Shown piece after piece: positions 47,230 to 53,491 of a stretch of DNA of 64,000 nt (position 1 is the stretch's first letter; every line of letters begins with the position of its first letter). Below the pieces are notes generated by a model that was not told the DNA's origin, made no database searches, and was given only the letters and a program-made list of their open reading frames with translations. Origin of the DNA: Nonomuraea indica (GTDB lineage Bacteria > Actinomycetota > Actinomycetes > Streptosporangiales > Streptosporangiaceae); the NCBI RefSeq assembly GCF_002850745.1, contig NZ_KZ559466.1, positions 224,512-288,511 of the forward strand, read 5' to 3'. The position numbers were made by a program, and so were the translations under genes.

Positions 47230-48030
47230 TCAGCCGCGGGAGCGGACGCCCTGCGCCATCTCGCGGGCCAGCTCGCCGATCGAGACGCGACCGGCCTGCT
47301 CGTCGGGCGCGTCGAGCATGCGGCGGATGAACGCCGAGCCGACGATGACGCCGTCGGCGTACGCGGCCACCTCGGCGGCCTGCGCGCCGGTGCCGACGCC
47401 CAGACCCACGCACACCGGCAGGTCGGTGTGCGCCCGGGTGCGCTTGACCAGGTCGCCGGCGGCGACGTTGACGCTCTCACGCGCGCCTGTGACGCCCATC
47501 AGGGACGCCGCGTAGACGAACCCGGTGCAGCACTCGACGACGGCCTGGATGCGCTCGTCGGTCGAGCTGGGCGCCACCAGGAAGACGGTGTCGATGCCGG
47601 CGGCGGCCGACGCCTCGCGCCAGGGGCCCGCCTCCTCGGGGGTCAGGTCGGGCGTGATGGTGCCGACGCCGCCCGCGGCGGCGAGGTCGCGCGCGAACCG
47701 GTCGGCGCCGTAGCGGTCGATCGGGTTCCAGTACGTCATGACGAGCGTCGCCGCGCCCGTGGCCGCCACGCCCTCGACCGTGCGCATGACGTCGGCGATG
47801 CGGGTGCCGTTGGTCAGCGAGCGGTGCACCGCGTCCTGGATGGTCGGGCCGTCCATGAGCGGGTCGGAGTAGGGCAGGCCGATCTCGATGACGTCGCAAC
47901 CGGCCTCGACCAGGGCGGCGGCGGCGGCGATGGCGCCGTCCTTGGACGGGAAGCCCGCGGGGAGGTAGCCGACGAGCGCCGCGCGGTTGTCCGCCTTCGC
48001 CTTGGCGAACACCGTCTGAAGAGTTGTCAT
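47230..48030 (-). CDS. trpA: Tryptophan synthase alpha chain
   Basis: TrpA splits indole-3-glycerol phosphate into indole and glyceraldehyde 3-phosphate and sends indole to TrpB. The 266-residue product has the catalytic Glu49 (DVIEIGLPYSDP) and Asp60 (LMDGPTIQDA), at the canonical numbers. The usual tight coupling to trpB is missing: 220 bp lie between the two genes. A 20-codon frame ends in the start codon of trpA as ATGA. Confidence 0.95.
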   Translation of the reverse strand: MTTLQTVFAKAKADNRAALVGYLPAGFPSKDGAIAAAAALVEAGCDVIEIGLPYSDPLMDGPTIQDAVHRSLTNGTRIADVMRTVEGVAATGAATLVMTYWNPIDRYGADRFARDLAAAGGVGTITPDLTPEEAGPWREASAAAGIDTVFLVAPSSTDERIQAVVECCTGFVYAASLMGVTGARESVNVAAGDLVKRTRAHTDLPVCVGLGVGTGAQAAEVAAYADGVIVGSAFIRRMLDAPDEQAGRVSIGELAREMAQGVRSRG

Positions 48031-48089
48031 GATCGTCCGTTCTCAGTGGTCGAGGCCGCTACGCCGCCGCTGCCGCCCTCGCGCTCCAT
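48027..48089 (-). CDS. Possible 20-residue leader frame coupled to trpA
   Basis: In the trpB-trpA spacer an ATG at 48089 opens a 20-codon frame (MEREGGSGGVAAS...) whose TGA overlaps the trpA ATG. GGAGGAGGGG stands about 20 bp before it. It might help ribosomes to reach trpA. It contains no Trp codons, so it is not a Trp attenuator. The rest of the spacer 48090-48250 is GC-rich without visible features. Confidence 0.25.
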   Translation of the reverse strand: MEREGGSGGVAASTTENGRS

Positions 48090-48250
48090 GGTGCCATCGC
48101 CCGCCGCCCCTCCTCCGGAGCCGCCGCCGGTGTCGCCGCGACGCCGCCGCCGGGGATGCGTGGTGTCACCCGCCGGCCGCGACGCCGGTGCCGCCGCCGA
48201 GGTCCGCCGGGCGCCGTACGGCCGCACGCGCGCGCGTGGCGACCGTGGCG

Positions 48251-49492
<1,242 letters not shown>

Positions 49493-49494
49493 TG

Positions 49495-50334
49495 CTATCC
49501 CTCTGCTCCGTGGTCGGGGCGCGTCGCCGGGTGGGCGCCGGCCGTCACCAGCGCCTCGACCGCCTTGCGCGGGTCCTTGCCGGTGACCAGGCTCTCACCC
49601 ACCAGCACGGCGTCGGCGCCGGACCTGGCGTAGGCGAGCAGGTCGTGCGGCCCGCGGACCCCCGACTCCGCGATCTTGATGACATTGTCCGGGATCTTAG
49701 GCGCGATCTTCGCGAAGACGTCGCGGTCGACCTCGAGTGTCTTCAGGTTACGCGCGTTGACCCCGATGACGCGGGCACCGGCCGCGACGGCGCGGTCGAG
49801 CTCCTCCTCGGTGTGCACCTCGACCAGCGGGGTGAGCCCGATCGACTCGGCCCGCTCGATCAGCGACACCAGCGCCTCCTGCTCCAGGCAGACGACCATG
49901 AGCAGCGCCAGGTCGGCGCCGTGGGCCCGCGCCTCCCACAGCTGGTAGGAGGTGAGGATGAAGTCCTTGCGCAGGATCGGGATGTCGACCCGCGCGCGGA
50001 CCGCGGCCAGGTCGTCGAGGCTGCCGCCGAACTTGCGCCGCTCGGTCAGCACGCTGATGACGTGCGCGCCGCCCTCCTCGTAGTCGGCGGCCAGCGCGGC
50101 GGGATCGGCGATCGCGGCGAGCGCACCCTTGGACGGGCTGGAGCGCTTGACCTCGGCGATCACCGACACCCGGTCGCCGCCGAGCGCGCCGAGCGCGTCT
50201 CGGGGGTCGGGAGCCCGCTCGGCCCGCCGCTTGAGCTCGTCGAGCGAGACGGCCTGCTGGCGTGCGGCGAGGTCGGCGCGCACCCCGTCGAGGATGTCGT
50301 CGAGGACACTCGGCCCTTCGGTACGCTCACTCAC
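49495..50334 (-). CDS. trpC: Indole-3-glycerol phosphate synthase
   Basis: TrpC closes the indole ring from carboxyphenylamino-deoxyribulose phosphate. The 279-residue TIM barrel contains [35 protein letters not shown] and IKIAESGV, the family motifs. GTG 50334 is preceded by GGAGGG at good distance. It is a single-function enzyme; the preceding isomerisation is expected from PriA in this window. No leader with Trp codons is seen in 50335-50452. Confidence 0.95.
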
Positions 50335-50452
50335 GCGCTTGGGATCCCTCCGGTCGGCAGTTGGGGATGGCTGAGAGTTCGCGTCGCGTCCGCTCCCGGC
50401 CTGTCCTGCGATGGTATCGGCCCCACCGGCCCAGCCCGGCCACAGCCCCCGG

Positions 50453-50902
50453 CTAGGGCGCCAGGAACGCCCCGAACGGAAGGTTGCGCACGACCCAGTA
50501 GACCATCACGACGCCGATGAGAGCCCACAGCCAGGCGGGATGCGCCAGGGTGGTCCTGCGCGGCCGGCCCTGCCAGGCGCGGACCAGCCAGCGGCCCCAC
50601 CAGAAGACGAGGAACGGGACCGTGGCCACGGCCAGCGGGTTGAGGCCGAGCGCGGCCACCGGGTCGAGATGCGCCAGCGCGTGGATCGTGCGCAGCGTCC
50701 CGCAGCCGGGGCAGTAGAGGGGCAGGCCGAAGATCTCACCCGTGGCCCACAGGAAGGGGCACGTCGGGTAGTGGCCTGGCTCGTTCGGGTCGACGAGGCC
50801 GACGAACGCCACCACGGCGCCGGCGGCCGCCGCGACGCCGAGCGGCGCCAGCACCGACCGCGATCGTCCGGTGCCGCGCCGCTCGAGGTTCGCGATGCCC
50901 AT
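50453..50902 (-). CDS. DUF2752 membrane protein
   Basis: A 149-residue membrane protein with about three helices and the DUF2752 motif [10 protein letters not shown] preceded by HYPTCPF. The cysteines are conserved in the family, whose function is unknown. ATG 50902 is preferred because sequence before it is unlike protein. It is 14 bp downstream of a CD225-like gene and often neighbours such genes in actinomycete trp regions, as here. Confidence 0.85.
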
Positions 50903-50916
50903 CAGGCATAGTCCCG

Positions 50917-51423
50917 TCAGTAGCTCGGCGTGTTCGCCGCGATGACCACGAACAGCAGGATGTAGCCGATGATGACCAGGCCCCACCAGATGGCGCCGGC
51001 GATCAGCGAGCGCTTCCACCAGGTCTTGGCCTCCTCGGAGGCCTCCGCCGCACCCTGGTAGTCGCCCATCTGCCACTTCGAGTTGACCTGCGACGACTTC
51101 ACGATCGACACGATGCCGAGGGGAAGGCAGCAGAACAGCGTGGTCAGGATGGCGGCGACCAGGTGGTTGTCCGGCGGGGGCTGCTGGCCGTAGCCGCCGG
51201 GCTGGCCGTAACCGCCACCGGGGGGCTGGCCGTAACCGCCGCCGCTCGGCGGCTGCTGACCATAGCCGCCGCCGCTCGGGGGCTGCTGGCCGTAACCGCC
51301 GCCACTCGGGGGCTGCTGGCCGTAGCCGCCGCCGTAACCACCGCCGCTCGGCGGCTGCTGCCCGTAGCCGCCGCCCGGAGGCTGGGCGCCGTAGCCGCCG
51401 TCGCCCTGGTTTCCGTAGCTCAT
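50917..51423 (-). CDS. CD225/dispanin-like membrane protein with [10 protein letters not shown] repeats
   Basis: A 168-residue protein. Residues 1-85 consist of about seven imperfect copies of [10 protein letters not shown], a disordered prion-like composition. Two membrane segments follow (VAAILTTLFCCLPLGIVSIVKSSQVN, with the CD225-like CC...GIVSIVKS...VN pattern, and SLIAGAIWWGLVIIGYILLFVVIAA). The role in bacteria is unknown. It sits in the trp region beside a second protein with similar repeats, so the two may act together. Confidence 0.85.
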   Translation of the reverse strand: MSYGNQGDGGYGAQPPGGGYGQQPPSGGGYGGGYGQQPPSGGGYGQQPPSGGGYGQQPPSGGGYGQPPGGGYGQPGGYGQQPPPDNHLVAAILTTLFCCLPLGIVSIVKSSQVNSKWQMGDYQGAAEASEEAKTWWKRSLIAGAIWWGLVIIGYILLFVVIAANTPSY

Positions 51424-51566
51424 GCTCGTTGACTCCTCATGCGTTCATTGTCTGCCGAGTTGCGCGCGGCAGCCTAGCGACAAACCATGAGCGACATGGA
51501 TCAACGCCCTATTTAGGGACATTTCGTGATCGGACTGCAACGGTGTGCACGGTTCGTGACAGCGCG

Positions 51567-52220
51567 TCAGTAGCTCGAGGTCGTCGCGGCGGCGGTGAGG
51601 CCGAACAGGGCGAGCCACATCCCACCGAAGATCACCCAGAGTATCAGCCACAGGACGATCGTGATGTAGGAGGTCACCAGGCCGCCCATCGCCATGCCGT
51701 GGCCCTCCTCCCCCGTCTTCTTGATCCGGTTGAGCGCGATGTGGCCCACGATGGCGCCGGGGATGCTGGTGAAACCGCAGAAGATCAGCCCCACGATGCC
51801 GAGGATCAGCGACGTCACGGCCATGCCGTTGGTCGTTCTCGCGGGTTGCGGCTGTCCGTATCCGGCGTATCCCTGCTGCCCGTATCCCGGCTGCCCGTAC
51901 GCCTGGCCGTAGTCGGGGTTCGGCTGGCTGTACCCGCCGGACCCGTATCCCTGCTGTCCGTAGCCACCACCGCTGGGGGGCTGCTGACCGTAACCGCCCT
52001 GTCCGTAGCCACCGCCACTGGCCGGCTGCTGACCGTAGCCACCCTGACCGTAACCGCCGCCGCTGCCCGGCTGCTGACCGTAGCCACCCTGACCGTAGCC
52101 ACCGCCGCTGCCCGGCTGCTGACCGTAGCCACCGCCGCCGCTCGGCGGTTGCTGACCGTAACCGCCGCCGGGCGGCTGTGCGCCGTAGCCCCCGCTGCCG
52201 CCCTGGTCCCCGTACGTCAT
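51567..52220 (-). CDS. DUF4190 membrane protein with GYGQQP repeats
   Basis: A 217-residue protein. Residues 1-125 are Gly/Tyr/Gln/Pro-rich repeats like those of the neighbouring CD225-like protein. The C-terminal DUF4190 part has two membrane helices ([44 protein letters not shown] and [20 protein letters not shown]). Functions of the family are unknown. It is separated by 143 bp from the CD225-like gene and may have its own promoter there. Confidence 0.85.
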
Positions 52221-52330
52221 GCCTTCGGCTCCTCCGTGTCGTGGCGAGTGACGTGGCCAGCTTATTGATCTGACGCCCGGCCGGTCCGGGTTCGTGGCAG
52301 ACCGTCGGCCATTCGTGACCTCGCCGCCGC

Positions 52331-52993
52331 TCAGGAGGTGGGGTCGTCTCCCCGGTCAAGGGCGTCCCACAGGGCGCGGTCGTCCGCCGCGGGCGCGCGC
52401 CGCCGCGCGGGGTCGCGCTCGTAGCGGTCGCCCATGCCCGCCCACCGGCCGCCGCGCACCACCGCGACCAGCCCGCCGGCCGTCATGATCGCCGCGCCGA
52501 GCCCGGACGACGCGGGCCACAGCGTCACGACGTCCCACTGCAGGGCGTCCGTGGCCTGCAGCACGTTGTGCTCGCCCAGCCAGTCGAGCGCCGCGTCGCC
52601 GCCGGCCGCCAGCCAGGTGGCGATTCCCGCCACGAGACCGCACAGCGCCACCAGCGCGCCGATCAGCCGCCGGGCGACGCCCTTGGCCGCCAGCGCCGCC
52701 ACCACGCCAGCCAGCCCGGCGAGCGCCACCGGGACGAGGGCGGGGCCGAGGTCTCCCCCGGTGGGAACGGCGAGCGTGCCGGAGCCGCCGTGGCCTCCCG
52801 TCGCGCGCACGCCGGTCACCCAGGGGCGGGTCGTCGCGAACAGGACGAGCGCGCACCCCAGCGCGGTGGCCAGCACCCACGCGCCCAGCTCGCGCCCGGA
52901 CCGCCGCCGTTCGCCGGCGCCCCCGCCGTTCGCCGCCTCCCCGGGAACGGCCGCGCCCGGCCCGGGCACGGCGGGACGTTCGGGCGAGCTCAT
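52331..52993 (-). CDS. Trp-operon-associated membrane protein (TIGR02234 type)
   Basis: A 220-residue protein with about four helices and an acidic/Arg-rich tail. The sequences [19 protein letters not shown] and GLVAGIATW fit the membrane protein found in actinobacterial trp operons, next to trpE in most genomes. The molecular role is not established. ATG 52993 overlaps the stop of a 17-codon frame (ATGA), itself a copy of this gene's own 5' end. Confidence 0.85.
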
Positions 52994-53093
52994 GAGGCCG
53001 CCGCGGGACAGGCGGGCGCGGCCGGACGTCCGGGCGAGCTCATGAGGCGGCCGCGGGGATGACGGGCACGGCGGGACGTTCGGGCGTGGTCAT
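52990..53093 (-). repeat. 50-bp tandem repeat with two coupled 17-codon frames
   Basis: Three start codons stand exactly 50 bp apart (53093, 53043, 52993). The first two open 17-codon frames, [17 protein letters not shown] and [17 protein letters not shown], which both end in TGA overlapping the next ATG as ATGA; the third opens the Trp-operon membrane protein ([10 protein letters not shown]...). The first ATG in turn overlaps the hisI stop. The unit is thus a triplicated gene start. The frames may be translated by termination-reinitiation. Confidence 0.85.
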
Positions 53094-53440
53094 GGCGCCG
53101 CCCCCACCTCCAGTGGGTCGGCGTCGAAGCAGGTGCGGTCACCGGTGTGGCAGGCGGCGCCCACCTGGTCGACCTTGAGCAGCACCGTGTCGCCGTCACA
53201 GTCGAGCGCGACGGCCCGGACATGCTGCACGTGACCGGACGTGTCGCCCTTGACCCAGTATTCGCCGCGGCTGCGCGACCAGTAGGTCGCCCGGCCGGTG
53301 GTGAGGGTGCGGTGCAGGGCCTCGTCGTCCATCCAGGCGAGCATGAGGACCTCGCCCGTGTCGTGCTGCTGGACGATCGCGGGCACCAGCCCGTCGCCGT
53401 TGCGCTTCAGCCGCGAGGCGATCTTGGAATCCAGGGGCAT
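53090..53440 (-). CDS. hisI: Phosphoribosyl-AMP cyclohydrolase
   Basis: HisI opens the adenine ring of phosphoribosyl-AMP in histidine synthesis. The 116-residue product shows the core [40 protein letters not shown] and the zinc/magnesium ligands in [13 protein letters not shown] and [13 protein letters not shown] 53440 begins the family sequence; the in-frame 53476 is less likely. The pyrophosphohydrolase domain (hisE) is not fused. The stop overlaps the first of the coupled mini-frames. Confidence 0.95.
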
Positions 53441-53491
53441 GCCGCCATTCAACCAGCCTCGCCGGCCGCCCTTCACATCGGACGCCGCCGG

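Follow-up and report, generated by a model that had tools for sequence, protein, structure and literature searches.

The window analysed here, a 64,000-nt stretch of Nonomuraea DNA, appears to carry on its minus strand at 47230-53476 the gene order hisI, trpM, DUF4190, CD225, a small membrane gene, trpC, trpB and trpA, in which the DUF4190 and CD225 assignments come from Pfam and the last three genes are those that we take, from their translations, to be trpC, trpB and trpA. No trpE lies between hisI and trpM. Repeats at 51199-51405 and 51954-52203 code for parts of the CD225 and DUF4190 proteins that are rich in Gly, Tyr, Gln and Pro. hisI, encoding phosphoribosyl-AMP cyclohydrolase, was called at 53090-53476 (PF01502, PRA-CH, E 1e-34; NF000768), and its TGA is part of an ATGA at 53093. 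The true start of hisI is probably an inner ATG near 53440 (MPLDSK...), since in the nearest relative, G029, a stop interrupts the corresponding frame upstream of it. We use trpM for the gene of the Trp_oprn_chp membrane protein directly downstream of hisI, which here occupies 52331-52993 (220 codons; PF09534, E 3.7e-37) and scored 56.3 bits against TIGR02234, under the cut-off of 71.15. trpM is intact, with a dN/dS of 0.36 against G029 when computed from residue 33. Thirteen of its amino acid changes are unique to this genome, 6 are unique to G029 and 10 are unassigned, and 13 versus 6 branch-specific changes leave room for a possible relaxation of constraint on trpM.

The hisI/trpM junction consists of three ungapped 50-nt tandem copies on the minus strand (52963-53112), found by two programs, one of which was TRF. 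With copy 3 (52963-53012) as the reference, copy 2 (53013-53062) was 84% and copy 1 (53063-53112) 74% identical to it; in the register of the ATG, identity was 80% between copies 1 and 2, 72% between copies 2 and 3 and 76% between copies 1 and 3. The copies place ATG codons at 53093, 53043 and 52993, all of them within ATGA, and trpM starts at the third. Ahead of it lie mini-frame 1 (53040-53093) and mini-frame 2 (52990-53043), each of 17 codons and each overlapping the next ATG at its end, and the stop/start overlap of -4 or -1 that is characteristic of termination-reinitiation was found at all three ATGA junctions. The original prediction of a triplicated gene start, with ATGs 50 bp apart, a frame shift at every copy, a TGA overlapping each next ATG and two 17-codon frames between hisI and the membrane protein gene, was thus borne out, and the layout appears compatible with a relay of ribosomes. 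The TRF score of the array was 185, whereas 20 dinucleotide shuffles of the entire window reached no more than 82; at lag 50, 74/90 positions matched, and the highest value over all lags of 20-120 in 300 shuffled 2-kb sequences was 54. These comparisons ruled out a chance origin of the array. As TCATGA is its own reverse complement, the plus strand at 52992-53062 holds a mirrored 50-nt ATGA mini-frame as an automatic by-product.

The three copies are not a fresh, near-identical repeat. They differ by 20-28% (at 5, 3 and 2 sites over their first 31 nt), against an identity to G029 of 96.8% for hisI over 339 nt (92.9% at third positions) and of 86.9% for trpM from residue 33. The suggestion that the repeat was a recent accident that had been tolerated therefore holds in part: a tolerated accident is the best-supported origin, while its recency is doubtful with 10-14 of 50 sites differing.

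The junction was then compared in a genus set of 54 Nonomuraea genomes including this one, with one genome per species, 53 of which have trpM. The genus name is taken from a search of a named collection, where the best 21 of the 40 matches listed were 20 Nonomuraea and one [Actinomadura] parvosata, and the remaining 19 came from more distant actinomycetes. The comparison covers 51 relatives, leaving out G041, in which the contig ends before hisI, and G032, which gave no trpM match; the trpM start in relatives was taken as the first in-frame ATG or GTG. hisI lies immediately before trpM in all 51 relatives with both genes readable. The two genes overlap by -4 in 17 of the 51 (9 ATGA and 8 GTGA) and by -1 in one. 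G029, the closest of them with a trpM that is 80% identical, carries one ATGA only, and its Shine-Dalgarno sequence is strong. Neither the 50-nt repeat nor an ATGA chain was present at this junction in any of the 51 relatives, as judged by reading the junctions and by TRF, and the array is private to this genome among them. The original prediction had joined two separate matters in its refuting condition, absence of the repeat from close relatives and a lack of ribosomes on the mini-frames; the repeat was indeed absent, but coupling is not refuted thereby. The trpM N-terminus is variable and repeat-prone, with a TRF array score of at least 50 in 10/51 relatives, in all of which the best-scoring period is divisible by three; a best period that shifts the frame was found among such arrays in this genome only. 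In-frame repeats lie in or beside this variable N-terminus in L005, L007, L011, L013, L022, L024, L026, L032, L034 and L042; in-frame repeats of 18 nt in L022 and 6 nt in L016 hold extra in-frame ATGs.

The persistence of coupling across copies follows from the reading frames. In ATGA the stop is one base out of frame relative to the start, and when the duplicated unit measures 3k-1, the frame of the upstream copy falls on the next stop, so that the -4 overlap recurs at each junction wherever the frame is open. Fifty is 3 x 17 - 1, i.e. 2 mod 3, and each copy shifts the frame; by the same arithmetic, the chain into trpM stays open whether one, two or three 50-nt units are present. Coupling through a frame change is an arithmetical outcome for one third of possible unit lengths. 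It had been described as unusual, a view which we do not uphold, as it is automatic for a 2 mod 3 unit with an open frame and is recurrent in the genus.

This recurrence was assessed by counting ATGA-N-ATGA-N-ATGA in the 54 genomes at six spacings, each with a reversed control; the spacings were chosen after the first match, and the six usable ones are 2 mod 3 and 1 mod 3 only, a scan at 51 having been dominated by coding periodicity and set aside. At the 2 mod 3 spacings there were 15 matches in 12 genomes (spacing 50), 13 in 10 genomes (47) and 5 in 5 genomes (53), the reversed control being 0 for each. The 1 mod 3 spacings gave 13 matches in 9 genomes (46, control 1), 4 in 3 genomes (49, control 0) and 22 in 10 genomes (52, control 1), and the lag-52 statistics leave out 9 of these 22 rows, which belong to arrays of G013 and G023 that other rows already represent. 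Arrays were counted only if the unit equalled the scanned spacing, half-period or shorter arrays (25, 26, 23 and 17/33 nt) being excluded, and tandem loci were then frame-walked; the G042 array, below the 0.6 identity line of the script, was counted via TRF (period 50, 83% match). Twelve 2 mod 3 arrays were obtained in this way (6 at 47, 5 at 50 with this locus included, and 1 at 53, weak with a TRF match of 68%), together with six 1 mod 3 arrays (3 at 46, 1 at 49 and 2 at 52, one of the latter from 13-nt units).

Eleven of the twelve 2 mod 3 arrays can be followed without interruption into an ORF of 150 codons or longer, and in ten the chain also starts, through a -4 or -1 overlap, from an upstream ORF that exceeds 100 codons, the exceptions in this group being L188, without clear genes, and L165, without a clear upstream gene. 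Among the 1 mod 3 arrays, two of six (L201 and L202) lead into an ORF of 150 codons or longer, and only L202 has an upstream gene, its 46-nt unit being made of coupled 32- and 14-nt steps, each 2 mod 3; no clear gene pair could be made out at L201, L203 or L199. Chaining from gene to gene thus differed as 10/12 versus 1/6 (Fisher p 0.013), on small, post hoc numbers and with a contrast that is partly built in, because 2 mod 3 ATGA arrays with an open frame chain arithmetically. Post hoc comparisons of arrays at co-directed gene junctions only (10 versus 3) and of all arrays (12 versus 6) gave a one-sided p of 0.046 and a p of 0.12, respectively.

The arrays lie at diverse gene pairs. L187 leads from an amidohydrolase to a DegT aminotransferase via three 16-codon frames, L189 sits at a solute-binding protein to permease junction, and L190 at a sulfotransferase to glycosyltransferase junction. 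L160 joins two likely ABC-2 membrane genes, the second under the Pfam cut-off, by GTGA steps, and L159 has three 17-codon frames at a gene pair without a Pfam match. At L192 and L168, two of the eleven, the first frame (43 or 70 codons) runs straight to the last start, bypassing the inner copies. No similarity was found among the first units of 13 loci at E 1e-3. Two of the 1 mod 3 arrays, L167 and L197, are broken. L167 (G044:C233, 1124-1222) is a 49-nt triplicated start with a broken chain, upstream of an ORF that spans no fewer than 593 codons, and has a strong Shine-Dalgarno sequence at every start (-10.3 to -11.9 kcal/mol). L197 (G010:C21, 1365-1965) is a long mixed array in which about 10 start units, most of them spaced by 50-52 nt, precede a 252-codon ORF, with four 17-codon frames ending in ATGA and a broken 52-nt chain. 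Apart from these, L204 (G002:C1:5943878-5943998) is a 23-nt TCATGA array with chained 8-codon frames on both strands.

Within the genome itself, 824,000 bases (the window and 38 stretches, overlaps included) were scanned for open 2 mod 3 ATGA or GTGA arrays with a period of at least 40 and an identity of at least 0.75, and only this array, its mirror image on the plus strand and a GTGA stretch of 59 nt were found. Searches of the 8.29 Mb genome with the 50-nt unit, each with 40 candidates scored, found no second copy, the next best match being of about 40 nt at E 0.002. In 396 genomes of the phylum, scanned at spacing 50 only, there were 30 matches in 28 genomes versus 13 in the reversed control. 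Besides this locus, L207, L208 and L209 were tandem with chained open 17-codon frames, entering ORFs of 480, 114 and 413 codons; among these three, a long frame ahead of the first start in the walk was seen only at L208. L210, from the same scan, has 25-nt units. The tandem ATGA pattern at spacing 50 is sparse outside the genus.

Taken together, these data make it fairly probable that the array is a start repeat born locally, that it is used as a relay, and that it persists since every step keeps the -4 overlap. The trpM start region would have been duplicated in tandem, ending at three copies, and with a 50-nt unit that spans the hisI/trpM ATGA overlap the TGA of each copy would have come to overlap the next ATG. 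A ribosome ending hisI would most likely re-initiate at 53093 and read 17 codons, re-initiate at 53043 for another 17, and finally at 52993, from where the membrane protein would be translated. Such an array would persist because each of these steps retains the -4 overlap that termination-reinitiation needs. Start repeats of unrelated sequence elsewhere in the genus, at different gene pairs, would have arisen by the same process, and this locus looks like one case of a recurrent pattern rather than a lone oddity. We put forward only tentatively the broader proposal that start duplication recurs in Nonomuraea and scattered actinomycetes, is filtered by selection to 2 mod 3, and yields serial mini-frames whose copy number tunes the downstream gene.

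The initiation signals bear on whether trpM could instead be started independently, at 52993 or at an inner GTG at 52969, with the mini-frames inert. De novo initiation at overlaps is known for some E. coli pairs, namely bioF and menH, at nearly 40% for the latter, according to the available part of PMC6728339, and 33/51 relatives begin trpM 0-10 nt past the hisI stop, mostly with a weak Shine-Dalgarno sequence. However, a strong Shine-Dalgarno sequence precedes only the first of the three ATGs, a GGAGGTG at 53105-53111 (minus strand) inside hisI; the duplex energies were -13.8, -1.7 and -5.0 kcal/mol for ATG1, ATG2 and ATG3, so that 52993 stands near the local mean of -4.4, against -13.1 for the single ATGA starts of G029, G008, G028, G033 and G035. 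Without the mini-frames, moreover, the start of trpM would be 96 nt past the hisI stop. Re-initiation drops steeply with distance and was nearly abolished at +38 nt in three E. coli pairs (available text of PMC10666635), and 96 nt would therefore be too far, outside the range of measured re-initiation. Since the last 15 nt of an upstream frame were enough for re-initiation in the pairs described there, a 17-codon frame would be long enough for a relay step. No unusual mRNA folding was found at the array (z +0.83; 167/200 shuffles fold at least as well), and a special RNA structure was rejected as an explanation. We regard independent initiation as unlikely.

A selected damping or metering device, in which copy number sets trpM output through lossy, repeated re-initiation, is a less likely reading still. 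Two of the three starts lack a strong Shine-Dalgarno sequence and copy number varies among the arrays of the genus, as such a device might lead one to expect. Removal of the Shine-Dalgarno sequence reduced re-initiation in four of five E. coli pairs (PMC6728339), a finding that counts against the relay as well, and the need for it varies in the portions available of PMC10666635 and PMC6728339; with no strong one at ATG2 or ATG3, a lower trpM output from the relay is plausible. Nevertheless, the array is absent at this locus in the 51 relatives, L189, L192 and L160 carry a Shine-Dalgarno sequence in every unit, so that damping is not a property which the arrays have in common, and a maintained copy number finds no support in these comparisons.

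Insertion of a mobile repeat of the type of the mycobacterial interspersed repetitive unit (MIRU) at the start codon would give the same architecture, a repeat ORF coupled to the gene at -4 nt (PMC12548453, in the part available), yet it is very improbable given the lack of a second unit in 8.29 Mb and the unrelated first units of the 13 loci. The own-genome searches, which placed the unit at one locus only, likewise disfavoured a dispersed or mobile repeat in general. Finally, a function for the 17-residue peptides themselves is hardly credible: neither frame is interrupted and both begin with residues that recur at the N-terminus of the protein encoded by trpM, but the differences between copies 1 and 2 are spread over all three codon positions (2, 5 and 3), no counterpart of the peptides occurs at the junction in the 51 relatives, and the mini-frames of other genus arrays encode different peptides.

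If the locally born relay is real, gene-start duplications would amount to a natural experiment on serial termination-reinitiation, with two to four serial overlapping starts, with and without Shine-Dalgarno sequences, at unrelated gene pairs. They would show how an operon could absorb frame-shifting insertions while the downstream gene is kept, suggest a simple origin for MIRU-like elements, and predict unannotated mini-frames and mis-called starts at such junctions in actinomycetes.

Among known systems, each step of the proposed relay has the ATGA junction and the presumed mechanism of termination-reinitiation as outlined in the available text of PMC6728339 and PMC10666635; that process normally involves one overlap between two real genes, whereas here there are three serial overlaps and frames of 17 codons. 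Bicistronic designs and leader ORFs similarly use a short ORF to hand the ribosome to a coupled gene (PMC12548453, as far as available), but are engineered or consist of a single uORF, while the frames here are repeated and derived from the target gene. Phase-variable repeats also have tandem units near a gene start, with a copy number that slippage could in principle alter (accessible part of PMC3711429), a source in which tandem repeats and translational coupling are treated as separate classes; in contrast, by frame arithmetic a gain or loss of a unit here shifts the frame, yet the gene is not closed and can still be reached through a chain. The closest known system, likened here by its published description, is the MIRU, a repeat which inserts at start codons and carries an ORF whose -4 nt coupling reportedly keeps the impact on the gene small (excerpted text of PMC12548453, a 2025 review). 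Both are start repeats with a small -4-coupled ORF, in our case as read from the sequence layout, and the 77 and 53 bp units of the senX3-regX3 MIRUs (PMC4213456, part available) are by our arithmetic 2 mod 3, like 50 and 47. MIRUs are described as a dispersed and apparently mobile family, whereas the array here looks like a copy of the gene start at which it lies and turned up at a single place in the genome; neither the own-genome searches nor the comparison of the first units of 13 loci revealed a dispersed family. Among the matches listed, the titles and abstract openings of the openly accessible literature held no report of locally derived, ATGA-chained tandem starts. Relative to the MIRU, what is new at this locus is that the start repeats are locally derived and serial.
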